A stretch of DNA of 64,000 nucleotides from Halapricum desulfuricans (GCF_017094465.1 NZ_CP064792.1:1-64000), one strand, 5' to 3'. Shown: positions 37,885-53,781, numbered from the stretch's first letter. Translations and numbers: made by a program. The notes: a model not told the origin generated them from the letters alone.

Positions 37885-38687
37885 ATGTAGCCAAGAGCAG
37901 TCCTACAGATAAGTCGTTCCATCAGAACACCATATGGAACGCTCACGGGAGATCAAACGGGGCTGAGGACGTCATTCTGGCACGCTCATATAATCCAACT
38001 GAACAGTTCCCGTTTACTATGAGCGCGAACCGAGTACTTCGTACCGTGGTTTGCTTCAACAGGAATCCCATTCAGTGAAAGTCATCGCCAGAGATTTATA
38101 TATGACTGCCCCCACAACTATTTGCCCCAGTTGGGGCAACCGAAGCCACAGATTGGGTGGTTTCATACCCACCTTTCCCCCACCCCCATATCACCCCCCC
38201 AATCATTTGATATCGGTGCAAACAAAGGTTCCCGTGGAATTTCTCTATCAATTGGCTAATCAGGAACGTCAATAGTTCTATGGCTCTCGAGATGTGGCTG
38301 ATCTGAGAAGGGGTCAGATAATGTAGAGCTGTTCACAAAGGGTGTTAGAACAGTTGTCATACCTGAGTTGCGGATCGGCAGAGATAGCCCCTGTATCCAT
38401 CATTCGATGGTCTACAGTATTATCGAGAGACGGAATAGAATCTCCACAAGAAAGAGAGAAAACTCTTCTCAATAGTGATCTGTATTGATCTATCTAGACC
38501 AGGGGAGTCTGGCGGTTAGTAAGAGTGTGTTTTCATCGAGGGATTTCTATCGCTCTTGGGAACCCCTTGGTTTCACCTTGACCTGCGACGACAGCTGTTG
38601 ATGGAATACTATACTCGCGCTCTGTCTCTTTCACCGGAGCTACAAATAGTATACTAATTGATGAATAGCTGTTTCTGAGCTGCCGGA
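37885..38687. other. Gene-poor AT-richer region
   Basis: About 800 bases without a credible gene. The base composition is lower in GC than nearby genes. I looked for tRNA, hairpins and tnpB tails and found nothing I can support, apart from pyrimidine-rich tracts near 38165-38205. Confidence 0.4.
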
Positions 38688-38842
38688 ATTCGGACGCCTC
38701 ACGCCTGGAAGGGGATTCGTTGGACAGTCGGACAAGCGCCTCCAGCGCCCATCGCTGCGATTCCTCCCGAAATCACGGCCGAAAGCCTCTGAATCCGCCG
38801 TTTCGTGTTCTACTGTTGGAATGTGTTTGCTTTCGTTCGATG
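38688..38842 (+). repeat. Direct repeat, copy 1 (duplicate of VWA gene upstream region)
   Basis: About 90 percent identical by eye to 40773-40928, including the internal run ACAGTCGGACAAGCGCCTCC and the last segment ending in ATG. Here the ATG is not followed by the VWA coding sequence. It may be a duplicated promoter region whose gene has been lost, or a mobile regulatory segment. Confidence 0.8.
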
Positions 38843-38924
38843 TGCAACCGGGCGAGTGGCGTCCACGGGAGTTCGCGTCCATCCACACTGGTCCCAACAG
38901 CGAAAATCAATCGCCGATTGATAC

Positions 38925-39298: not shown

Positions 39299-39394
39299 GA
39301 TATTCTCCCTCAGGTCTAGATATTGAACGTTCACGACGATTGGTGCATCCGAGTGCCCCAAGCGTTATTACCTAATACACGAATTATGAATTGT

Positions 39395-39979
39395 ATGTCG
39401 AAGGCTGCTGGAGATCCCGAGCGCGCCGTCAATGGCCTGCTATCAGTGGCACAGCTGCTGGAGGAACTGCGGCTGGCGCGACTCTACACGTTCGTTCTCC
39501 GAGAAGGAGAAGTCACCATCGACGACATCGTCGAGGAATTGGAGCTGCCGCGGACGACAGCGTACTCGGATGCCGGCACGCTCGTCGAACTCGGGGTGTT
39601 GACCCGGGATGAAGAACAAAAGACGCACACGTATTCGGCAGTCCCGATTACGCTCACCGCGAATCTCGACGGAGACGAGTACACGATCACGCCGACGCTC
39701 ATCGAAGCGTTCGGCCGGTCGGCTCGGGACCAAGATCTCAATCTCTTGATCGAAAGATATGGACTCGGAAAGCTCGCAGCAGCGATCACGTATGCCGTCC
39801 CATACGCGGAAGGTGAGATGTCAGAACGGGTTGCGGCCCGAGAGCTTGATCTCCAGCACGCGTTCGCAATTGCCGTGCTACAGGCGTTGCGAGACGTCGT
39901 CATTGATATGAAGACGGTCGATCCATATTTCGAGGAGATCCGGAACGCCCGTGAGCAGCCGCCAACAACAGAGGACTGA
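39395..39979 (+). CDS. HTH regulator, antitoxin-like partner of PIN protein
   Basis: A 194-residue protein with an N-terminal winged helix (about 25-85: TIDDIVEELELPRTTAYSD, then LVELGVLTRDE) like TrmB/ArsR regulators, and a helical C-terminal part that may be the toxin-binding or dimerisation region. It precedes the PIN gene by 11 bases in the same direction. An upstream ATG at 39386 is an alternative start. It is most likely the repressor/antitoxin of the pair. Confidence 0.72.
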   Translation: MSKAAGDPERAVNGLLSVAQLLEELRLARLYTFVLREGEVTIDDIVEELELPRTTAYSDAGTLVELGVLTRDEEQKTHTYSAVPITLTANLDGDEYTITPTLIEAFGRSARDQDLNLLIERYGLGKLAAAITYAVPYAEGEMSERVAARELDLQHAFAIAVLQALRDVVIDMKTVDPYFEEIRNAREQPPTTED

Positions 39980-39990
39980 GGACGGAAACG

Positions 39991-40518
39991 ATGAGTAAGC
40001 CGTTCGATCCATTTCAAGAGTCGGTAGCGTGGGTGGCAGATACGGGCCTGTTCATTGCGTGTGGCCGCCAGCAGAACAACAAGTATACTGCACTCGAACG
40101 CTTCGCCGAACGGAACGACCTTACCTTCCTCATTCCGCAGCGGGTCTACGACGAACTTGGTGGTGCCCCGAATCGGAGCACACCGAGTCAGACACCGATC
40201 AACAGCGCCATCGACGCGGGCTGGGTCACGGTCGCTGACGAACCGGATTACAGGAACAGCACGGTGTCACGGGTTATGGACGACGTCCTGTCGTTCATCG
40301 CCCGTTCGTCGAATCGGGACGAAGACCAGATTGAGAAAGCCGACACTGCACTCGCTGCGGTCGCGGCCGAACGACTCGAAGAGAACACCAATTACGTCTC
40401 TATCGTGACGACGGACCTCGATGCCGGAGAAGGTGCCGTGGCTGCGCTTGAGGCGAACGGGTTCGAGAACCGCGTTCAGTTCAAAAATGGCTTCGAGTTA
40501 ATCGACGAGATTACGTGA
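39991..40518 (+). CDS. PIN-domain protein, toxin-like
   Basis: A 175-residue PIN-fold nuclease candidate. Acidic residues in conserved places are Asp in WVADTGLFIACG (about 17), Glu in RVYDELGG (about 55), Asp in EKADTALAAVA (about 113) and Asp in TTDLDAGEGAV (about 140). VapC-like toxins cut RNA with such an acidic cluster. The upstream HTH gene suggests a toxin-antitoxin module, but related PIN proteins also work in RNA processing. Confidence 0.75.
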   Translation: MSKPFDPFQESVAWVADTGLFIACGRQQNNKYTALERFAERNDLTFLIPQRVYDELGGAPNRSTPSQTPINSAIDAGWVTVADEPDYRNSTVSRVMDDVLSFIARSSNRDEDQIEKADTALAAVAAERLEENTNYVSIVTTDLDAGEGAVAALEANGFENRVQFKNGFELIDEIT

Positions 40519-40772
40519 CCTCGTTGAGCAATTCCGGATGGGTTCGTCTACAGGTCATCCACGTATTCTCCCCGCTGTTCCATCTTTTCCCTCACGGTGC
40601 GCCGGTCGTAGCCGTGATTCCTTTGTCATTGCACTAGCGGATGAAGTGATCCAGACGTGAGCGATGGGAGTGAACGGTGGCTTGTGTGACGCTATTTCGC
40701 GGTCCGCAAGTTCGAGACTCTTTGGTCGTTCCCACGCGAACCACTGTTGGAAGCCCTATTTGCGGCCCTCAA
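40519..40772. other. Spacer before VWA gene repeat
   Basis: About 250 bases downstream of the PIN gene with no credible coding sequence. It joins directly to the 156-base repeat that leads into the VWA gene. Confidence 0.4.
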
Positions 40773-40928
40773 ATTCGGATGTCTCACGCCTGGAAAAGCG
40801 ATTCGTTCGACAGTCGGACAAGCGCCTCCAGCGCCCATCGCTGCGATTCGTGCCGAAATCACGGCTCACAGAGTCTGAATCCGCCGTTTCGTGTTCTACT
40901 GTTGGAATGTATTTGCTTTCGTTCGATG
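40773..40928 (+). repeat. Direct repeat, copy 2 (VWA gene upstream region)
   Basis: Second copy of the 38688-38842 segment. It ends exactly at the ATG of the VWA gene, so it holds that gene's promoter or leader. No clear TATA box is seen at -27. Conservation between the copies runs to the start codon and stops there. Confidence 0.8.
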
Positions 40929-42905
40929 GGCGACGAGACAACGCAGACGTTACTGATTCCAGCCGCTGCGGACTGCGACATCCACGGCCTCCAGACCGGA
41001 CGCCGCTATGAGATCGCCGAGGCACGGTACTGCGTGCCGACAGCTGCTGCGGACCCGAGTGACGAACGGTGCCCGAACTGCGGCGCGCAACTGCGCCACG
41101 CCGTCGCAATAGACGCTGCACCGGCACCACTTCGACAGGCTGCCACGGAGTTGAAAATCGACGAGCCGTTTTTCATCGCGACCGAGCAGACGCGGCTCGT
41201 CCCGACTGACTGGGAGAAGGTTGACGACTGGCAGCCGATGGACCGAGACGACCGAACTCGACATACGGCGCCGGACTATGTCTGCGACAACTGTGAGGAG
41301 GTCTTCGACGACCGCGACCTGCATCTCCCGACCGACGCGGAGAGCGCCCCTGTTATGCAGAGTGTCAATCAGTCGCCGATGGCGTCGTCGTCGGACACGA
41401 TGGGGCTTGCGACTGGCGGTGCGAAGGACGCGACGAACTTCCGAGAGAATATCGAGCAGGGATTCACGCCCCAGCCTGGCGCGATCAGCACAGAAGGGTT
41501 GTTCTACGACTACTATTTCGAGACGGGCGGCCGCCGCGCCGAGACGGACGCGCTGTTCGCGCCGCGGTACGCTGCCGGCGTCTCGAAACATCCCGTCACC
41601 GCCGAGACCGAACACGTCCTCAGCGTCGGGCTAGACTCGACGCTGTCGACTGATGACTTCGAGCGGCCGCGCCTCGATCTGGTGGCAGTGGTGGACGTCT
41701 CGGGGTCTATGGATTCGCCGTTCGATGAGTACTACTACGACGAACATGGTCGCCAGCGCGAGGTTGAGACGACAAGCGAGCGGAAGATCGACGCCGCCAC
41801 CCGCGCGCTGTGTGCGCTTACAGAGCAGTTAGACGACGAGGACCGACTCGGCGTCGTCCTGTACAACAACCGCGCCCATGTTGCCAAGCCGTTGCGAGAC
41901 GTCGGCTCGACAGATATGCACGCGATTCGGGAACATATCCGTGAGGTGTCTGCTGGCGGCGGGACGAATATGGAGGACGGCTTCATGGCGGCGTGGGATC
42001 TCCTCCAGGACGCACCGGCCGAACCCGACACCGAGCGCCGCGTCGTGTTCATGACCGATATGATGCCGAATATGGGCAGCACCGGTGAGACGCGGCTCCG
42101 TGAGCTGTTCGCGGACGCTGCTGCTGATGGGATCCACACGACGTTTCTCGGGATCGGGCTCGACGAGAACGCCGATCTTGCTGACGCCGTCTCAGACGTC
42201 CGTGGTGCGAACCACTACTTTGTCCACTCCGTCGAGGAGTTCGAGCAACGCCTTGGCGAGGAGTTCGCGTATATGGTGTCACCGCTGGTGTTCGATCTCC
42301 AGCTGGAACTCGACGCGGAGGGCTGTGAGGTCGCCGATGTCCATGGCGCCCCCGGCAACGACAGCACTGACCAGCTGATTCACGTGACGACGCTGTTCCC
42401 CTCGCCCAAGGTCGACGGCGAGACCCGCGGCGGGGTCGTCCTGGTCGAACTCGACGTGACCGATACGGACCGCGCGGTCGATCTGGTCGCATCGTGGGTT
42501 GAGCGCGACGGCAGTCATCACTCCGAGCGCGTCGCCGTCGAACTCCCACGGAATGGGCGCACGTTCGATCACAGTGGCATCCGGAAAGCCACCGCGCTCG
42601 CCCGGTACGCGAGTCTGCTTCAAGCGTGGGCCGAGGACGTCCACTCGCGCACGAACGTGTCGTCAGGTGTTGATGACTGGATCGACTCCGGGAGGCCAGA
42701 TGAACAGGAACGCGAGTCGGTACCGCTGACAGTCCCAGAAGAGTACGGCCGCCGGTTCAAGACGCTACGGGCGTACCTGGTTGCGGAAGCCAACGCACTC
42801 GGTGACGACACGCTGAGCCAGGAGGTTGAGGTGCTTGAGACGCTGTGCGCCGAGGCTGGCATCGAGATACAGCCGACGGTTGAGCAGGCAGGTGATTGGG
42901 ACTGA
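40926..42905 (+). CDS. Zinc-ribbon von Willebrand A domain protein
   Basis: A 659-residue protein. The N-terminus has two possible zinc sites (CPNC near residue 49 and CDNC near 119). After a linker, a vWA domain has a full metal-ion-dependent adhesion site: DVSGSM near 258, GGGTNMEDG near 345 and MTDMMPNMG near 377. A beta-rich C-terminal part follows. vWA proteins often act as metal-dependent adaptors in stress or quality-control complexes. No signal peptide is seen, so it is cytoplasmic. Its stop overlaps the next start (TGATG), tying it to the HAD/HEAT protein. The start ATG at 40926 is preferred over an upstream open stretch, which is leader sequence shared with the other repeat. Confidence 0.85.
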   Translation: MGDETTQTLLIPAAADCDIHGLQTGRRYEIAEARYCVPTAAADPSDERCPNCGAQLRHAVAIDAAPAPLRQAATELKIDEPFFIATEQTRLVPTDWEKVDDWQPMDRDDRTRHTAPDYVCDNCEEVFDDRDLHLPTDAESAPVMQSVNQSPMASSSDTMGLATGGAKDATNFRENIEQGFTPQPGAISTEGLFYDYYFETGGRRAETDALFAPRYAAGVSKHPVTAETEHVLSVGLDSTLSTDDFERPRLDLVAVVDVSGSMDSPFDEYYYDEHGRQREVETTSERKIDAATRALCALTEQLDDEDRLGVVLYNNRAHVAKPLRDVGSTDMHAIREHIREVSAGGGTNMEDGFMAAWDLLQDAPAEPDTERRVVFMTDMMPNMGSTGETRLRELFADAAADGIHTTFLGIGLDENADLADAVSDVRGANHYFVHSVEEFEQRLGEEFAYMVSPLVFDLQLELDAEGCEVADVHGAPGNDSTDQLIHVTTLFPSPKVDGETRGGVVLVELDVTDTDRAVDLVASWVERDGSHHSERVAVELPRNGRTFDHSGIRKATALARYASLLQAWAEDVHSRTNVSSGVDDWIDSGRPDEQERESVPLTVPEEYGRRFKTLRAYLVAEANALGDDTLSQEVEVLETLCAEAGIEIQPTVEQAGDWD

Positions 42906-44695
42906 TGCTGGTGTTCGCGTTCGATCGTGACTGGACCGTCGATGTCAACCCTCATCCGCAGTATGAGGCAGTCCCCCTAGAGTGGGTCCGCTACCTCGCA
43001 CACAAAACCGACCACGCAGTCTACGCGATCGGGAATCAAGACCTCGCTGAAGAAGCGGCGATTCCCGGCGTCGTTGACATTGTCGGTCGCCACCCTGCCG
43101 ACTGGGACGACTGGCTTGGCGACAAACAGCCGGACGGTCGGTATGAGTCGTTCCCGACGCGGCGGGAACGGTTGACGTTGATCGAAGCGTTGCACCCGGC
43201 GGCCGATCGCTATATCGTCGTTGACGACCTCGATTTGAGCGACGTCGAGGGCTGGCAGCACTACCACGCCTGGGAGTTTGTCCCGGCAGTCCGTGATGGG
43301 CACCTCGACCTCGCGCCCCCGTTGACGGATGATCAAGTGAGTGATGACGATCTGGCCACTGATGGCGGGCTGCCCACGGTAGCGGGGATCAAGCCCGCGG
43401 ACGCCGACCACCTCGCGTCGTTCCTCGATGGGTACGACGACACGCCCGGATTCGAAATTACCTACGAACAGGACGGCGACGATGTGACGCGACTGTGCTG
43501 GGACGTTACTGTAGTCGAGGACACAGCAGAGAGTGAGGCACCGATCGTTCGCTGCTCGTCACTCATCCCCAAGGGGGAGTCGTTCACTGTGCCCATCGGT
43601 GCAATCGATGTCGTCCACGTTGTCAAACTATCACCGGAAGCGGTCACCGCACAAGCCGAGACACAACCCGACGCAGCAGCGGCGCTCCGCCGGCTTGCGG
43701 ATGCAGCGCCGAACCAGCTGCAGCTTTCCCCCGTCTTGACACTACTGGATCAGAAAGCGTTGCCACCGCAACAGCAGCGAGACGCCCTCCACGCGCTGGC
43801 CGCCCTCACAACGGTTCGACCAGATGCGTGTTCGCCAGCGATTCCCATCTTGCGCTCCCTGCTTCAGGAAGATGACCCCGTCGCTCCTCACGACGCCTTG
43901 ACGACACTGCACGCAATCGCAGAAGCCAGCCCTGAAGACATCGCCCCGGCGCTCGATGATATCGAACCGTATCTCGACTCAGAGCGTACGCCGGTTCAGC
44001 GCGAGGCAGCTGGCTGTCTTGCCGGGATTGCCACGGAGTACCCGGCCGACTGCATTGATGCGGTACCGAAGCTCGTCGATTTCCTCGAGGAGGATGACGA
44101 GAGGCGACGGTACGCTGTCCGTGCTCTTGCAAAGGTGGCTGCTGAATCCCCCGAGACGACTGCATCAACTGCCGGTCATCTCGCTGAGATCGCTCTTGAG
44201 GAATCAGCATCGAATGAGGTTCGACAACTCGCAACGGCAGCCCTTGGCCGCACTCTTAGGGCGCCTGCCGCATTTACGACTGAGATCTTCGAGGACGTCG
44301 TCGAGTTGTACGATACTGATAACTACAAACTCAGGAATAACGCTATCGCATTGACGTACGAGGTGGCAGACCTACACACCGATATCGTAGAGGAGTACAT
44401 CGATGACATCGCAGCGTTGCTTACTGACGACGATTCTCAGACTCGTATCAACGCGAGTGGGACACTCGCACGTGTGGCTGAAGACTTCCCAGCGTCGGTC
44501 AGTCACTTGACCCCGATGTTCGTCGAATTGCTTTCGGACGACAACGAGCAGGTCCGAGAGAACGCCTGCTGGGCGCTGGGCCGTCTCGAGGCCTCGGAGG
44601 CGAAAGCGACACTCGAAGAGCGTCTCCAGGAGGAGCCAAGTGAAGCCGTTCGGAACCGGATTGCGTGGGCACTTTCAGAGATCGACCCAGTATGA
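42905..44695 (+). CDS. HAD-like / HEAT-repeat protein
   Basis: A 596-residue protein. The first 150 residues resemble a HAD phosphatase: MLVFAFDRDWTVDVNPHP places Asp8 and Asp10-like acids at the catalytic loop, and YIVVDDLDLS resembles a later acidic motif. From about residue 240 to the end there are 7-9 HEAT-type helical repeats (for example QREAAGCLAGIATEYP, RRRYAVRALAKVAAES, QVRENACWALGRLEAS). Such repeats bind proteins or nucleic acids. It overlaps the VWA stop by one base and precedes the ADP-ribosylglycohydrolase by 76. The joining of a possible phosphatase with a HEAT scaffold is unusual. Confidence 0.75.
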   Translation: MLVFAFDRDWTVDVNPHPQYEAVPLEWVRYLAHKTDHAVYAIGNQDLAEEAAIPGVVDIVGRHPADWDDWLGDKQPDGRYESFPTRRERLTLIEALHPAADRYIVVDDLDLSDVEGWQHYHAWEFVPAVRDGHLDLAPPLTDDQVSDDDLATDGGLPTVAGIKPADADHLASFLDGYDDTPGFEITYEQDGDDVTRLCWDVTVVEDTAESEAPIVRCSSLIPKGESFTVPIGAIDVVHVVKLSPEAVTAQAETQPDAAAALRRLADAAPNQLQLSPVLTLLDQKALPPQQQRDALHALAALTTVRPDACSPAIPILRSLLQEDDPVAPHDALTTLHAIAEASPEDIAPALDDIEPYLDSERTPVQREAAGCLAGIATEYPADCIDAVPKLVDFLEEDDERRRYAVRALAKVAAESPETTASTAGHLAEIALEESASNEVRQLATAALGRTLRAPAAFTTEIFEDVVELYDTDNYKLRNNAIALTYEVADLHTDIVEEYIDDIAALLTDDDSQTRINASGTLARVAEDFPASVSHLTPMFVELLSDDNEQVRENACWALGRLEASEAKATLEERLQEEPSEAVRNRIAWALSEIDPV

Positions 44696-44771
44696 ATACG
44701 CTTACCAGGATTCCAGCACACATAGTAGCACAGCTCGTCATGTGTCGAAAGCGATCACAGGAGCTCCAATT

Positions 44772-45710
44772 ATGATCCCCACCTCGCAAGCGGAAGGCTG
44801 TCTCCTCGGGCTAGCCTGTGGCGACGCCCTTGGCCGGCCAGTCGAATTCAAATCCGCCGTCACGATCGATACACAGTATGGCACCGTTGACTCGATGCTC
44901 GGCGACGGCAGTCACGGGCAACCGCCCGGCACAATTACCGACGATACCGAACTCGCGCTTCGGATCGCTCGCAGTCTCGTCGACTCTGGCGGCTTTGACG
45001 GCGCTGACGTCGCAGAGCGGTTCGTGAGCTGGTACGAGACCGGCCCCTTCGATATTGGCTTGATGACTCGCGACGCCCTCGCTCGTCTCCAGCAGGGTGA
45101 ACCGTGGGAACACGCCGGCCAAGACGTCTGGGAGTCACGACCGGAGGGCAGTAACGCCGGCAACGGGAGTGTGATGCGGTGTGCACCGTACGCGCTGGCC
45201 TTCACCGACGACCCGCAGCATCTCGGGCGCGTGAGCGAACAATCCTCAGCGATCACCCACGCGGATCCCCGCTGCAAGCGTGGCTGTGCCATCCTGAATC
45301 TCACTATCGCGGGTCTGCTTCACGGCGAGGACGAGCCGTTGCGACGCGCTCTTGAGACGACCTATCCCGGCCAGTCGGACGCACCGGAGCTCATCAACGC
45401 TGTCGAGGGACTGCCGGACAGCGTCTCGGCAAGCGAGCTCAACAACGGTGGATACGTCGTCGATGCGCTCCAGGCGGGGCTTTACTATGCACTTGACGCA
45501 GACAGTGCAGAAGACGCGATCGTCCGGGCGGTCAACGCTGGTGGCGACGCCGATACAGTCGGTGCGATCACCGGGGCTGTCGCCGGCGCTCGCTTTGGCG
45601 CGGAGTCACTTCCCGACGCGTGGCTGGCCGCGATCGAGGAAACCGACGACCTCCGCGACCTCGCGGGCGAATTGCTCGAACTGGAGCGTACTGGGAGTGA
45701 TGCCAAGTGA
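44772..45710 (+). CDS. ADP-ribosylglycohydrolase family protein
   Basis: A 312-residue DraG/ARH-like enzyme expected to remove ADP-ribose from a protein, RNA or DNA target using two Mg ions. Metal and substrate motifs are GDALGRP near residue 17, TDDTELAL near 56, GSNAGNGSVMR near 125 and GGDADTVGAITG near 260. An open stretch upstream starts at 44640 inside the previous gene; MIPTSQAEGCLLG at 44772 is the family start. It overlaps the next gene by four bases (GTGA). No ADP-ribosyltransferase is visible in the cluster. Confidence 0.93.
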   Translation: MIPTSQAEGCLLGLACGDALGRPVEFKSAVTIDTQYGTVDSMLGDGSHGQPPGTITDDTELALRIARSLVDSGGFDGADVAERFVSWYETGPFDIGLMTRDALARLQQGEPWEHAGQDVWESRPEGSNAGNGSVMRCAPYALAFTDDPQHLGRVSEQSSAITHADPRCKRGCAILNLTIAGLLHGEDEPLRRALETTYPGQSDAPELINAVEGLPDSVSASELNNGGYVVDALQAGLYYALDADSAEDAIVRAVNAGGDADTVGAITGAVAGARFGAESLPDAWLAAIEETDDLRDLAGELLELERTGSDAK

Positions 45711-46363
45711 GTGACCGCCCGACTCGTATCGGCCTCCTTTCAGATATCCACGGCAACGCCATCGCACTAGAAGCCGTCCTTGAAGAGATAGACGACGTGG
45801 ATGCACTCGTCTGTGCCGGTGACATCGTCGGATATGGCCCATCGCCGGGGCAGTGCATCGAGATGGTTCGCGAGCGATCGATTCCAACGGTGGAGGGCAA
45901 CCACGACCGGGCCGTTGTCAACGACCAGCCCTACGAATCAGGCGACCAGTACGCCAGCCGCACGCTGTCGGAGGAGCGGCGGTCGTGGCTAGCGGCGCTC
46001 CCGCGAGAGCGCCTGCTGTTCGATGGGCGACTGAAGGTCGTCCACGATCACCCCGAAGAGCGGAATCGGTACACACGACCCGCCGCGTTTGAACCGACGC
46101 TCCTCGACGACGAAGCCGTGCTTGTCCTCGGGCATACACACGTCCAGCATGCCGAAGTGTTTGCTGACGGGATCGTCGTCAATCCCGGTAGTGTCGGCCA
46201 GCCACGTGACAGGGACCCAGATGCTGCCTATGCGGTCGTCAATCTCGATGCGATGACTGTTGATCTGCATCGAGTTTCCTATGATATCGAGGAGGTACGG
46301 CGGCGGATCGAGAACACCAGCATCGACAGCTACAACGCTGAGCGACTGGCGAGGGGACGATAG
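45707..46363 (+). CDS. Calcineurin-like metallophosphoesterase
   Basis: A 218-residue phosphoesterase of the YfcE/MJ0936 type. The metal ladder is complete: SDIHGN (about residue 13), GDIVGYGP (about 37), GNHDRAV (about 65) and GHTHVQ (about 137). It starts with GTG inside the stop of the ADP-ribosylglycohydrolase gene, so the two are translationally coupled. Likely substrates are phosphodiesters or phosphoesters of nucleotides; processing of released ADP-ribose or a cyclic product is an attractive guess only. Confidence 0.92.
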   Translation: MSDRPTRIGLLSDIHGNAIALEAVLEEIDDVDALVCAGDIVGYGPSPGQCIEMVRERSIPTVEGNHDRAVVNDQPYESGDQYASRTLSEERRSWLAALPRERLLFDGRLKVVHDHPEERNRYTRPAAFEPTLLDDEAVLVLGHTHVQHAEVFADGIVVNPGSVGQPRDRDPDAAYAVVNLDAMTVDLHRVSYDIEEVRRRIENTSIDSYNAERLARGR

Positions 46364-46394
46364 CTCGACCATCCATCAAGAGACACAACTACCA

Positions 46395-47516
46395 ATGTAC
46401 GAGCTCACGTACGAATTCGAGGGCAGTGGGGGAAACATCCAGTATCAAACGAGACAGCAAGCCGAAACCGACGCCACCACAGCCGGCATCGACGTTGAAA
46501 TCGTCTCGACAGGACTGTCGCTCAACGACCAAACGATCAACGGTATCGCCATTGTCGCTATTTCAGCAGACGTCGATCCCGACACAGCGTTCGAGTCTGC
46601 AACTAGCGTGCGTCGTACTGACGAACTGATCGGTCTAGCGACAGCCCACGAACTTGCAGAGCGAACTGAACTCCCAGATACGGCCATCGCCACCCGGTTC
46701 GAGTTGTCAAAAGCACCCCTGATTGTGGGGAAAGCCACGCATGGTCCTAACCAGATTGACGCAGTGTTCCGCAACGATAACGGGGACGTGATCAGCAACT
46801 ACGAGCTCGCCTCTCGGTATCAGCATGACACCCAGGATGTCCATTTTCATCCCCTCGGTGTCCTCGTCGAACGCGAGTTGTATCGGCCCGTCACTGCCTC
46901 TCAACCCAGCGCTGAGAGTGATGGCGTGGGGGAGCCGATACCAATAGCGACGTATCGCGGGTCGACCTCGAAACCGTGGCAATTTGGGCTGACTCGATAC
47001 AACGGACAACTGCTCCTAACCCAAGCTCGTGCCGGCCCCTCAAAGTTCGATCCGGTGCTCAAGCGATTCCCGATCGAGACGCAACCGCTTGGCAACCAGC
47101 CACTCGTGTTTAGCCACACTGTCAGCCGGCGACTCTGGTCCGAAGATCCGGTGAACCCCCATGTGCAGTCCCAGCGGAGCGAGGGGCTTCGGACACAATT
47201 CCTCTACAACGATGCGGACGGGTGGCACCTCATACAGCCAAAAGGGCTCGACACGGCCGACGACGCAGATAGTGATTCATTCGAATCGACACAACTCGAC
47301 GGCGTCTCTGTTCGGTCAGCGTTGCTGCGCTCGGAGACCGACGGCGAGATGAAGACCACGGTCGAACACGAGTACCGCATCACACCAACGGCGCTTGAGG
47401 TCTGTGAGCGACTATACGCGCTTTCGTATTACGAAGCCAACGAAGAGTCGCTCGACAATCTCCAGTGGGATATCGCCGAGGCCACTGCATATGACATCGT
47501 TGAGGCGGAGCGGTAG
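46395..47516 (+). CDS. Unrecognised cluster protein
   Basis: A 373-residue cytoplasmic protein, 31 bases after the phosphoesterase. I recognise no family. The N-terminal 90 residues alternate strands and helices (MYELTYEFEGSGGNIQYQT, then GLATAHELAERTEL). The middle looks beta-rich with repeated Tyr/Trp segments (KPWQFGLTRYNGQLLLTQ; FSHTVSRRLWSEDP), and the C-terminus is helical and acidic. There is no signal peptide, membrane helix or clear catalytic motif. Its place at the end of the VWA-HEAT-DraG-phosphoesterase set suggests it belongs to the same function. Confidence 0.7.
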   Translation: MYELTYEFEGSGGNIQYQTRQQAETDATTAGIDVEIVSTGLSLNDQTINGIAIVAISADVDPDTAFESATSVRRTDELIGLATAHELAERTELPDTAIATRFELSKAPLIVGKATHGPNQIDAVFRNDNGDVISNYELASRYQHDTQDVHFHPLGVLVERELYRPVTASQPSAESDGVGEPIPIATYRGSTSKPWQFGLTRYNGQLLLTQARAGPSKFDPVLKRFPIETQPLGNQPLVFSHTVSRRLWSEDPVNPHVQSQRSEGLRTQFLYNDADGWHLIQPKGLDTADDADSDSFESTQLDGVSVRSALLRSETDGEMKTTVEHEYRITPTALEVCERLYALSYYEANEESLDNLQWDIAEATAYDIVEAER

Positions 47517-47763: not shown

Positions 47764-48969
47764 GTGGAGTCCCGTCGAACTGCCGTCATCAAACTCGACA
47801 CACCCGAAGGCGCGAATGAATATCTGCGGGAGACTGTCGAGCAATTCAACTACTGTGCCAACACCGCAAGCGAATGGTGCTGGCACGGCGACGACGGCTA
47901 CCACGTTACATCGAAAGCAAAGGCCGAAGATGCGCTGTACGGCCAGCTACGCGAAGATACGGAGTTGACCGCGAATCTCGTCCAGAAAGGGATACGCCAA
48001 GCCGTCGAAGCCATCAAGAGCGGCGTCGAACGGCTCAAAAACGGCCAAGATACGTCTCGTCCGACGTTCACGGCGGATACCGCCGTCTACGACAAGCGAA
48101 GTGCCACGTTCCACCGCGACCACGTTTCGCTATCGACTGTGGACGGACGAATCGAGTGCGACTACATTCTCCCCAAGGACGACGACACACCGCCGACAAA
48201 GTACGTCGCCAACGAGAACTACGAGTTTCGGCGGGCGACACTCCATCGACGTGACGGCGACTGGTATCTCCATGCGTCGATGCTCAAAGAGGACGATACC
48301 GACACCACCACCGGGCACAGGACAGTCCTCGGTGTGGACCTCGGTGTGAACCAACTCGCGGTCGCTTCGACCGGGCGATTCTGGTCGGCAGACGAGTTCA
48401 ACCACTGGAAGCGAGAGTACGAAAAACGGCGTGGCGACCTTCAGCAGTGTGGGACACGGGCGGCACACGACGCGATAACAGGCGTCGAGCGCAAGGAGGA
48501 CGGACGCTTCGAGATATTCCTGCATCGTGTCGCCAACGAAATCGTAGCCGAAGCCGTCGAACACGACTGTTCGCACATCGTGTTCGAGGACCTGACCGAC
48601 ATTCGTGAGAACGTGCCACAGGCGTCGTGGCATCATCTGTGGGCGTTCCGCCGCCTCTACGAGTACGTCGAATACAAGGCTGAAGAACACGGTGTCGAAG
48701 CCGTTCAGGTAGACCCACGGAACACGTCGAAGCGGTGTTCGACTTGTGGGTTTACCCACGACGACAACCGCAACGGCGAGGACTTCGAGTGTCAGGACTG
48801 CGGCTACCAGAACCATGCCGACTACAACGCGGCGAAAAACATCGGCCTTCAGTATCTCCGGCGTCGGCAAAACGCAGACGTTGGAGGCGCACCCGTAGAC
48901 GTGCGCTTGAATCGCGGGACGTTGAACGTGAGTGGAGAGTACGACCTTCCCGCCCCATCTGAGGCGTAG
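47764..48969 (+). CDS. tnpB: TnpB RNA-guided nuclease (IS200/IS605 type)
   Basis: A 401-residue TnpB. The RuvC-like catalytic acids are Asp in VLGVDLGVNQLAV (about residue 190), Glu in IVFEDLTDIRE (about 277) and Asp in NHADYNAAKNIG (about 344); the zinc ribbon CSTCG...CQDCG lies between the last two. It starts at GTG 47764. No tnpA is present, so it is a tnpB-only element, with structured sequence on both sides. TnpB uses an RNA derived from the element's right end to guide DNA cutting, which favours keeping the element. Confidence 0.93.
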   Translation: MESRRTAVIKLDTPEGANEYLRETVEQFNYCANTASEWCWHGDDGYHVTSKAKAEDALYGQLREDTELTANLVQKGIRQAVEAIKSGVERLKNGQDTSRPTFTADTAVYDKRSATFHRDHVSLSTVDGRIECDYILPKDDDTPPTKYVANENYEFRRATLHRRDGDWYLHASMLKEDDTDTTTGHRTVLGVDLGVNQLAVASTGRFWSADEFNHWKREYEKRRGDLQQCGTRAAHDAITGVERKEDGRFEIFLHRVANEIVAEAVEHDCSHIVFEDLTDIRENVPQASWHHLWAFRRLYEYVEYKAEEHGVEAVQVDPRNTSKRCSTCGFTHDDNRNGEDFECQDCGYQNHADYNAAKNIGLQYLRRRQNADVGGAPVDVRLNRGTLNVSGEYDLPAPSEA

Positions 48970-51092: not shown

Positions 51093-51510
51093 CTCGACGC
51101 GATCTCTAAGTGTCAGAAATAGAATAAGAGGGGCAAGCGTTCGGCAGTACGTCTCTGGGTATGTACAGGCGGTACAAGGCGACTGCCCCGGGGCTTGACC
51201 CCGGGGTGCGTTCGCATCTATGTGTATGTCCACAAGTACGTGAGTACGTATATTCTGCCGAACGTTAGTACTCCCAGCGGAGATCCGATATCGAGGTACT
51301 GATAGCGACCATAGACGGAACGCGACCAGACCCAACCTACGTATTAACAATCCAATCCAGCGGTGTAGTGCTGTGGGATTTCCTCGTCTCCGGACGGGGG
51401 AATATGTCCGTCTCGTTCATCGATGTCGAAGTGTCACCAGGTACCGGCTACGTATATTCTACTACCGCCCTATGGCACGGTTTTATTCGTTTCAGACTGC
51501 TGCCGTGTGT
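51093..51510. other. Intergenic region with hairpin and promoter
   Basis: About 420 bases holding the GGGGCTTGACCCC-type hairpin at 51186-51206 and, at the right edge, the TATA-like TTTTATT (51480-51486) about 28 bases before the chosen start of the PLD gene. Otherwise I see no gene. Confidence 0.45.
51186..51206. repeat. GGGGCTTGACCCC hairpin, copy 1
   Basis: CCCCGGGG-CTTGA-CCCCGGGG, an 8-base stem. The 20-odd bases before it (GGCGGTACAAGGCGACTG) are shared with the copies at 63030 and 63614. Compare the tnpB tail at 63686, whose stop lies in the same kind of hairpin. Confidence 0.6.
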
Positions 51511-53781
51511 ATGGACGAACTGACAGCGAATATTTCGTTCGACCGATTCGCAGATATGCCGGAATTCTACGGATCCGGTGCTGCGGAATACCGCCTGGCG
51601 ATGGTGAAAGAGCGGGATGACTTTCTCGATTTGTTCGCAGGCGCTCGTCACGTGGACGCCGTGACGTACGCGGAGACGCCCGACCTGATGGTGAAGATGC
51701 TAACCGAATACGATATCGGCTCACTTGACGTGCTCATCGGGAACGCCGAAGACTACGCCGACCAGGTAAATGAAGTCTCGACAGCGAGGTCGCTCGCCCG
51801 ACTTCGACAGGACGACCGACTCACGATTCGATTGAAGAACCGGAAGACAGTCCACTCGAAGATTTACCGAATCGTGATGCCGGACGACACGGTGAAGCTC
51901 GTCCAAGGATCGGCGAATCTCTCGCGGAATTCCTGGGAGTACCACACGAACCAGATATCCGTCATCACGACCGATGTCGGGACTGAACTCGACGAAGAGT
52001 TCGAGCGGTTCATCGACGAATACCGCGACGGGTACAGCGACCAGACGCTCCTCGAAGGGCTTGTCGAAGCGCTGGAGGAGGCTGATTCACCGGAAGAGCG
52101 AGAGAACCGCATCGAGTACTGGGTTGGTGCCGGTGACCTTGATGTGAGCGACACTGCCGCCCTGAATCAGGATGCTGTTGAGGACCTGAAAGACGCCGCC
52201 GACCAAGTCACCGCCGTTGTTGACGACCCTGAGGAGGCTGACGAGACGGTTGCGTTCGTCGAGGAACCCGAGAACGCCGACCGTAACGTCGTCGAGCCGG
52301 ACGAGCCAACGGACGAAGACGGTTCCGTCGCTCTAGACGAGGACGAGTCACCGGACGTTGGGCTCGTCGAATCGGAACACGAAACGGGGCTGACGGACGG
52401 GCTCGACCGTCCGCGGGTCCGTGCGCCCGACGAGAAGATCCGAATGGGAACCAGCAAGGTAGACAAGGACACTGCCGACGAGTTCGGGGCCGGGCTCCGT
52501 GACCGAGGCGCAACTGTCGAGGATCACAGCATCACCGCGCCGCTGAGCGCGTACAACAACCAGGTCAAGGAATCGACGGCTATCCCGACGATGTCGGTCC
52601 TGCCGGAGGCCGAGCAGGTCGTGATCGGCGAGGACGACGAGATGATTCTCGTCGCCACCGACGAGCCAACCCCCGAAGTCCTGGATCACTGCCTCGAAAC
52701 CATCGAGGACTACATCGAGACCGTCCAGAACCACGGTCACACGCAATCCGAGACCGCAGTGATGGCGCAGATGTACGAGGCGTTCCTCTACGGGTTCTGG
52801 GCCCCGTTCGCCAACCAGTACGCCGAGGCACTGTCGTCACCGTCACGGACGCTGGACAACGTCCTGCAGCACCTCTACATCGAAGGGAAGAGCGACGCAG
52901 GGAAGGACAAACTCACCGAGTATATCCTGCGACTCGTCTCCGACAACACGGTCATCTCCGGGGTGGACGCAGACGACGTCGGCGTCAAGGAAGTCCGCGG
53001 CGTCCGCGAGTGGGACACGTGCTTCCCGTACGCCATCATCGACGCCGAAAAAGAGAAGATCCAGCGCTGGAGCCCGATCCGAAACTACTGGGGTGACTGG
53101 ACCCCAACTAACGTCGATCAGCCGTGCCTTATCTTCACGACCAACGACGCACTCCCAAAATCCGAGTTCCGGAACCGAATGAAAATCCTGAGCATGGACG
53201 TCTCCTTCCCCTCCAACCCGGAAGATCCAGGGTTCCGCAAAGCACAAGAAGACCTGTCGGGCGTGCTGGAACGGCAAAACCCGATCTTCAGTTACGTGGC
53301 CCGCCGCATGCTCACCGAACAACCGTGGACAGACGGGAACGGCACGATCGAAGACGTCCGCCGGATTGTCCGCGAATTCTACAACGAAGCCGGTCGAGAG
53401 CAGCCCGAGTACTTCCCCGCCGATGAGCCAGCCGAGAAGACGTACGACACAGGGCGGTTGAAGTGGCAGCGCGACATTCAGGGCGGCCGTGTCACGTTCG
53501 AATCGGAGCCGAATGCCATCACAGCTGACTTCGACCGCGAAGAATACGAGGTGTACGACTACGAGAAACGTCTCCCCAAACGATTCATGTCCGAGAAATC
53601 CTCCACGAGCGTCTACATCGGCGCACCTGAAGAATTCGCCGAGTGGATCGGATACTCCGTCAATGACCTCCTGAACGGGGCAGCCGAAACCGGCACAGAC
53701 ACCGAGCAGTCAACAACCACGGAAGACGCATCGGATACGGACAACTCCGGCGGATTCCTGTCTCGGCTGTTCGGGGACTAG
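51511..53781 (+). CDS. PLD-like nuclease fused to P-loop ATPase
   Basis: A 756-residue protein. The N-terminal domain has one phospholipase-D active-site half: TVHSKIYRI (HxK, near residue 115) and VQGSANLSRNSW (near 133). An acidic linker (about 220-320) follows. The C-terminal half looks like an AAA+/SF3-type ATPase, with Walker A EGKSDAGKDKL near 458 (Asp after the Lys, where Ser/Thr is usual), IIDAE near 510, CLIFTTND near 548 and RNRM as a possible Arg finger. The start at 51511 (MDELTANISF) is set by TTTTATT about 28 bases upstream; an ATG at 51472 is possible. A nuclease joined to an ATPase suggests DNA defence. Confidence 0.72.
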   Translation: MDELTANISFDRFADMPEFYGSGAAEYRLAMVKERDDFLDLFAGARHVDAVTYAETPDLMVKMLTEYDIGSLDVLIGNAEDYADQVNEVSTARSLARLRQDDRLTIRLKNRKTVHSKIYRIVMPDDTVKLVQGSANLSRNSWEYHTNQISVITTDVGTELDEEFERFIDEYRDGYSDQTLLEGLVEALEEADSPEERENRIEYWVGAGDLDVSDTAALNQDAVEDLKDAADQVTAVVDDPEEADETVAFVEEPENADRNVVEPDEPTDEDGSVALDEDESPDVGLVESEHETGLTDGLDRPRVRAPDEKIRMGTSKVDKDTADEFGAGLRDRGATVEDHSITAPLSAYNNQVKESTAIPTMSVLPEAEQVVIGEDDEMILVATDEPTPEVLDHCLETIEDYIETVQNHGHTQSETAVMAQMYEAFLYGFWAPFANQYAEALSSPSRTLDNVLQHLYIEGKSDAGKDKLTEYILRLVSDNTVISGVDADDVGVKEVRGVREWDTCFPYAIIDAEKEKIQRWSPIRNYWGDWTPTNVDQPCLIFTTNDALPKSEFRNRMKILSMDVSFPSNPEDPGFRKAQEDLSGVLERQNPIFSYVARRMLTEQPWTDGNGTIEDVRRIVREFYNEAGREQPEYFPADEPAEKTYDTGRLKWQRDIQGGRVTFESEPNAITADFDREEYEVYDYEKRLPKRFMSEKSSTSVYIGAPEEFAEWIGYSVNDLLNGAAETGTDTEQSTTTEDASDTDNSGGFLSRLFGD

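Follow-up and report, generated by a model that had tools for sequence, protein, structure and literature searches.

Five co-directional genes in the window analysed here (64,000 nucleotides, NZ_CP064792.1:1-64000, from the start of a second replicon of 180,725 bp, a plasmid, in a 2.88 Mb Halapricum genome) encode a VWA protein, a HAD-like domain fused to HEAT repeats (HAD-HEAT), an ADP-ribosylglycohydrolase (ARH), a calcineurin-like metallophosphoesterase (MPE) and a 373-residue protein of unassigned family, and the question is whether they act together and, if so, in what. A first-pass annotation had treated them as one candidate system. Our analysis shows that they are a rearranged part of a larger module, real, recurrent among Halobacteria and previously only partly described, which is best read as an archaeal variant of the ARG-centric kind of system predicted in bacteria.

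Re-reading of the open reading frames (ORFs) reproduced exactly the arrangement described in the first-pass annotation, with a VWA/HEAT overlap at TGATG, an ARH/MPE overlap at GTGA and gaps of 76 nt between HEAT and ARH and 31 nt between MPE and the 373-residue protein gene. Pfam and NCBIfam agree with its VWA, HEAT, ADP-ribosylglycohydrolase and phosphoesterase labels, and the metal sites it called complete in the VWA, DraG-type and calcineurin-type proteins have motifs that are conserved in alignments. The VWA domain (Pfam E 1.6e-13) has an intact metal ion-dependent adhesion site (D257xSxS, T347 and D378) and the protein also carries a zinc ribbon (C49xxC52...C120xxC123). ARH matches ADP_ribosyl_GH (PF03747, E 1.1e-79) and the DraG structure 2woc (E 6.1e-41), and MPE matches Metallophos_2 (E 6.1e-24) and, above its cut-off, the NCBIfam YfcE model.

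At this locus the window is closest, among named relatives, to Halapricum desulfuricans pHSR-Bgl01 (VWA 91.6% identical), with which the block aligns as a single 6.6-kb stretch at 87.7% identity whose ends, 40916 and 47538, bracket exactly the five genes. Comparison of the window with three same-genus copies and one Salinibaculum copy gave ratios of nonsynonymous to synonymous divergence (dN/dS) of 0.08-0.30 for all five genes, and hence these are or were under purifying selection as proteins. This alignment, the dN/dS values and an adjacency that recurs across genera mean that the grouping exceeds chance. Synonymous divergence from H. desulfuricans is 0.08 for ARH and 0.28-0.66 for the other four genes, a pattern which suggests recent recombination confined to the ARH gene.

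We searched 391 Halobacteria genomes using the 373-residue protein, VWA, PIN and the HAD domain as queries, mapped the genes of 90 loci, and derived the recurrent order from these maps and from a tally of which genes adjoin each other. The 373-residue protein was found in 10 genomes, and its neighbourhoods revealed further shared genes; VWA matches occurred in 67 genomes (about 36 with the zinc-ribbon form), PIN in 53 and the HAD domain in 55. The order that recurs is a divergent AAA_14/DUF4143 ATPase followed by VWA, HAD-HEAT, ARH, CARF and PIN, with UvrD and PD-(D/E)XK proteins often after or flanking the set (as in L014, L015 and L195). It is these six genes, rather than the five originally proposed, that make up the recurrent set, and VWA, HAD-HEAT and ARH are repeatedly adjacent across Halobacteria, as the first-pass annotation had expected of a genuine system. 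The divergent ATPase-VWA pair is present in 25 loci from 14 genera, VWA precedes HEAT in 17 loci (11 genera), HEAT lies next to ARH in 21 loci, VWA adjoins a HEAT-ARH pair in 10, ARH precedes CARF in 8 (7 genera) and CARF precedes PIN in 42 (29 genera). Simple descent as the sole cause is unlikely given the 14 genera and the rearranged orders.

The fullest sets were those of Salinibaculum sp. KK48 and genome G165, in which the ATPase diverges from VWA, HEAT, ARH, MPE, the 373-residue protein, CARF, PIN and AddB-like and AddA-like genes. Plasmids of Halorientalis litorea, Halorientalis marina and Haloplanus rubicundus carry the module without MPE and the 373-residue protein, with ARH placed beyond the ATPase in H. 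marina and cut short in Haloplanus. A calcineurin-like phosphoesterase was seen in the window and in seven other loci (L014, L016, L055, L074, L158, L195 and L198). MPE and the 373-residue protein are thus optional, the latter marking some copies and not forming part of the core. Decay is common in other copies too: HEAT is in two pieces in L055 and L074 and shortened in L016, and the reading frames of the ATPase and AddB look broken in L198. The module, a concrete genetic unit, is carried both by chromosomes and by plasmids, in Halapricum, Halorientalis, Haloplanus, Salinibaculum and their relatives.

The CARF protein matches PADLOC CARF_m1 (E 2.7e-57) with an intact DxTxGxK-type motif, DVTPGRK, and its profile matches the ring-nuclease structures 3qyf (E 1.1e-7) and, of the APE2256 family, 7pq2 (E 1.3e-3). 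PIN matches the PIN half of PADLOC CARF_m1--CARF_PIN (E 3.4e-25) and its acidic residues D124, E164, D228 and D252 are invariant. Neither the Cas10 palm domain (PF22335) nor, above its cut-off, Csm1 (TIGR02578) was found in any of 52 PIN-carrying genomes, control genomes being positive, and an ancillary operon of type III CRISPR was rejected on this ground. As the Cas10 palm is missing from all 52, the CARF ligand is probably something other than a type III CRISPR oligoadenylate. A cyclic oligonucleotide from CBASS was also considered and rejected as its general source, SMODS nucleotidyltransferases being present in merely 2 of 15 carriers. One conceivable scheme, to which we give a low probability, has CARF-PIN as an immune switch independent of CRISPR. 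Its activator would be a nucleotide, derived from ADP-ribose or related to it, that ARH, HAD and MPE would release by acting on virus-modified host molecules, and the ATPase and VWA would recognise the target. Of all aspects of the module this link is the most interesting and has been tested least. A recurrent archaeal module with a CARF-PIN effector in genomes without Cas10 would allow CARF signalling to be tested outside type III CRISPR and would offer a route to its ligand.

Our preferred interpretation, which we hold tentatively, is that these genes form the central part of a conflict module, mobile among haloarchaea, whose full form runs from the ATPase to PIN. The ATPase and zinc-ribbon VWA would hold or recognise targets that are damaged or modified, ARH would strip ADP-ribose that an invader had put on host proteins or nucleic acids, and the HAD-like domain, together with MPE where present, would process the freed ADP-ribose or a phosphorylated product. 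CARF would sense a small nucleotide ligand and turn on the PIN ribonuclease, and the UvrD/PD-(D/E)XK proteins would attack DNA. The substrate, the order of the steps, the CARF ligand and the role in defence are what we infer, and reversal of ADP-ribosylation is our best-supported guess as to function. The first-pass annotation had likewise proposed a pathway that reverses ADP-ribosylation; one with vWA proteins and phosphatases has published bacterial precedent (PMC9503650).

Several observations weigh against this conflict-module interpretation. Defence genes surround the loci, but same-contig controls carry defence genes too; three components were not found in viral contigs, a result that is silent on targets either way; the WYL model PF13280 matched 0 of 39 relatives, and Nudix regulators were not found by sequence, although they were not searched for genome-wide. 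Antiviral activity and ADP-ribose hydrolysis are themselves things that we infer. A PHROG match that would have placed the ATPase in phages was not reproduced in phage records and was set aside. The HEAT-ARH neighbours occur in both orders, 10 loci having HEAT first and 11 ARH first, and ten of those 11 have no VWA; ARH-HEAT and CARF-PIN pairs are also found apart, so that they may be separate modules that often meet. Two or three independent modules (ARH-HEAT, ATPase-VWA and CARF-PIN) sharing hot spots without joint action would account for this, as for the many CARF-PIN loci without VWA, the MBL-fold protein found in place of HEAT in Haloferax and Halobaculum and the defence genes common to neighbours and controls. 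We nevertheless regard this as unlikely, if the strongest of the competing explanations, since 18 of 19 loci have their VWA and HAD matches no more than about 50 nt apart, VWA-HEAT-ARH-CARF-PIN is contiguous in five genera (L057, L060, L061, L065 and L077) and, of the 18 genomes that have VWA as well as PIN, 15 have the two at most 15 kb apart, a spacing with a chance of about 1% in each. Eighteen genomes have both VWA and PIN against 4.9 expected (hypergeometric 2e-8) and 18 both VWA and HAD against 3.0 expected (1e-12), values whose significance is overstated as they ignore shared ancestry and horizontal transfer. The Haloferax and Halobaculum variants (L078, L079, L080, L085, L086 and L202) have a distant ATPase (~26%), and the protein that replaces HEAT after VWA is the MBL-fold one, of ~750 residues.

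A nucleic-acid damage or RNA-repair response that is not primarily antiviral would use many of the same parts, with CARF sensing RNA ends and HAD, MPE and ARH healing or recycling modified ones. The RNA-repair regulator RtcR uses a divergent CARF domain, which responds to damaged tRNA (PMC7790460), ADP-ribosylated nucleic acid might be a substrate of the phosphatases and of ARH, and the UvrD/PD-(D/E)XK partners noted above would also fit. The genes scanned, however, included no recognisable ligase, cyclase or KptA-like transferase, and the PIN ribonuclease and the patchy, often plasmid-borne spread better fit a conflict role; we therefore consider RNA repair rather improbable.

In the manner of a toxin-antitoxin pair, ARH might serve as immunity to an ADP-ribosylating toxin on the same element. 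Its relatives of solved structure include 6dre (E 9.6e-36), and the NCBIfam model for the Tri1 ADP-ribosylarginine hydrolase matches it below cut-off. Against this, no coupled ADP-ribosyltransferase or sirtuin was recognised in the scan of window genes and their neighbours, other transferase families not having been searched for genome-wide, DarT was found in 0 of 15 genomes, and the 373-residue protein has no transferase-like fold match; such an arrangement is very unlikely. The first-pass annotation had placed the 373-residue protein in no known family, and searches of Pfam, NCBIfam, PADLOC and PHROGs likewise returned no match. Eight aligned homologues share a C-terminal domain of ~190 residues, which also occurs by itself, and the AlphaFold2 model is fairly confident for this all-beta domain only (pLDDT mostly 80-90); Foldseek against the PDB and viral models found nothing significant. 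We accordingly rejected the 373-residue protein as a hidden transferase or a known fold. ARH itself has a ~310-residue C-terminal extension of unassigned family in eight loci (L057, L058, L060, L061, L065, L070, L171 and L019), conserved and with many invariant His, Arg and Asp residues; kinship of the 373-residue protein with the C-terminal half of this long ARH (~616 aa) was rejected (hhalign probability 0.3%).

The HAD-HEAT label of the first-pass annotation holds for its HEAT part (profile E 1.1e-21), and its HAD part comes from motifs. FDRDWTVD, AIGNQ, R86 and VVDDLDL are conserved in the family. Measured against the superfamily's signature, DxDx(T/V), S/T, K/R and DD motifs on a Rossmann fold, motifs I and IV are conserved and motif II has N; this N-terminal domain gave no Pfam, NCBIfam or PDB profile match and no fold match. 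Foldseek with residues 1-260 ranked WYL regulators (CapW, DriD, PafBC and BrxR) and Sm-like barrels first, all at E >1e-3 and low TM-score, and a sequence search for WYL in the middle region gave no support. The possible WYL-like barrel is a lead and not a result, worth noting because bacterial ARG systems contain WYL sensors.

The window copy itself departs from the recurrent order (Table 1). No ATPase match was found anywhere in its genome, although the relatives G069 and pHSR-Bgl01 have one. The first ~37 VWA codons of H. desulfuricans are missing and a dispersed repeat that carries TTCGATG at its end is in their place, so that translation would start from the ATG there; as orthologues have these additional N-terminal residues, the VWA start is probably not native. 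The repeat, possibly a small mobile element, has four copies in the genome that are 85-90% identical, those outside the window being at C1:339790-339952 and C1:345157-345266. The helix-turn-helix (HTH) and PIN-like pair beyond it may be a toxin-antitoxin unit; L159 has a related pair and L069 distant ones. The nearest CARF-PIN is at 65.5-67.4 kb of the same replicon, ~23 kb away and beside a degenerate fragment of the 373-residue protein. With merely ~71% identity to the H. desulfuricans copy, as against 88% for the five-gene block, it is unlikely to be the original partner displaced by insertion and is probably what remains of a second, more distant module. The window copy may be impaired, or may borrow this CARF-PIN.

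Table 1 Features of the window at and around the five-gene block
Feature	Coordinates	Strand	Remarks
VWA protein, 659 aa	40926..42905	+	5'-truncated by ~37 codons relative to orthologues
HAD-HEAT protein, 596 aa	42905..44695	+	HAD-like N domain (motifs), possible Sm/WYL-like barrel ~181-241 (weak fold evidence), HEAT repeats
ARH (DraG/ARH type), 312 aa	44772..45710	+	TDD and DxDT metal site conserved
MPE, YfcE type, 218 aa	45707..46363	+	metal ligands conserved
373-aa protein, family unassigned	46395..47516	+	beta-alpha-beta N domain, variable middle, conserved all-beta C domain ~180-371
Dispersed 163-bp repeat, copy	40772..40934	+	supplies VWA upstream region and start ATG
Dispersed 163-bp repeat, second copy	38687..38848	+	90% identical, far side of HTH-PIN pair
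HTH (DUF7437/TrmB-like) and PIN-like pair	39323..40518	+	at the position of the divergent DUF4143 ATPase in relatives; outside module
TnpB-type insertion sequence gene	47764..48969	+	directly downstream, where relatives have CARF-PIN; outside module

Other genes nearby were also noted. At L023:5211-10093 (C2:69211-74093), not far from the second CARF-PIN of this replicon, a large SMC/Rad50-like ATPase precedes a gene that weakly matches a phosphoesterase/nuclease. An 802-aa protein with a PLD-like N-terminal part (51373-53781) has an 86% identical copy beside the ATPase in L015, and may travel with or near modules of this kind. The ORF at 1033-2238 has the same length as the TnpB gene, 401 aa; the two were rejected as relatives, with 29/401 positions alike and no DNA match.

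How does the module compare with known systems? Like Ter-dependent stress clusters it has a vWA protein and phosphatases, and a host stress module of this kind, in which VWA and HEAT would be the scaffold on which metal or nucleoside-metabolite chemistry takes place, could draw on a weak TerF-vWA match of VWA (E 7.3e-5, 23.4 bits against a 29.4-bit cut-off) and on the phosphatases and ADP-ribose enzymes that the first-pass annotation cited from Ter contexts. In the scan of window genes and their neighbours, however, TerD-, TerC- or TerB-type Pfam matches and kinases were lacking, and the conserved partners are CARF-PIN, the DUF4143 ATPase and UvrD/PD-(D/E)XK nucleases. Ter membership was rejected, in line with the first-pass annotation, which had seen no transferase, TerD or kinase and no canonical ter cluster; a Ter-kind role is improbable.

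The CARF and PIN proteins resemble PADLOC CARF_m1 and CARF-PIN in matching both with motif and acids intact, and differ in being two separate genes, in carriers without Cas10, linked to the ATPase, VWA, HEAT and ARH. The CARF protein likewise has a significant profile match to Crn1/APE2256-type CRISPR ring nucleases, and no type III CRISPR was found in the 52 carriers tested. ARH matches DraG, ARH3 and Tri1 hydrolases over nearly its whole length and in metal-binding motifs, but no linked DraT or Tre transferase was found and it falls below the DraG and Tri1 equivalog cut-offs.

The closest likeness is with the bacterial ARG-centric systems, for which a role in undoing viral ADP-ribosylation was predicted in 2022 (PMC9503650, Viruses 2022 14:1977, section 3.8). 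These combine ARG with calcineurin, HAD or other phosphatases, vWA or other chaperones, restriction-type nucleases, helicases and Nudix/WYL regulators, a Nudix or WYL transcription factor being present in little over 42% and hence not obligatory (PMC9503650). The module shares an ARH without linked transferase, calcineurin-like phosphatases and, as judged from motifs, putative HAD-type ones, a vWA protein, PD-(D/E)XK and helicase partners and variable optional genes. It differs in being haloarchaeal, in its always divergent DUF4143 ATPase, in the fusion of the HAD-like domain to HEAT, in the 373-residue protein and in having CARF-PIN where bacteria have the Nudix/WYL transcription factor; the rhodanese phosphatase was not seen in it. 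In that account anti-ADP-ribosylation systems are proposed only from bacterial gene neighbourhoods, and haloarchaea are not named (PMC9503650).

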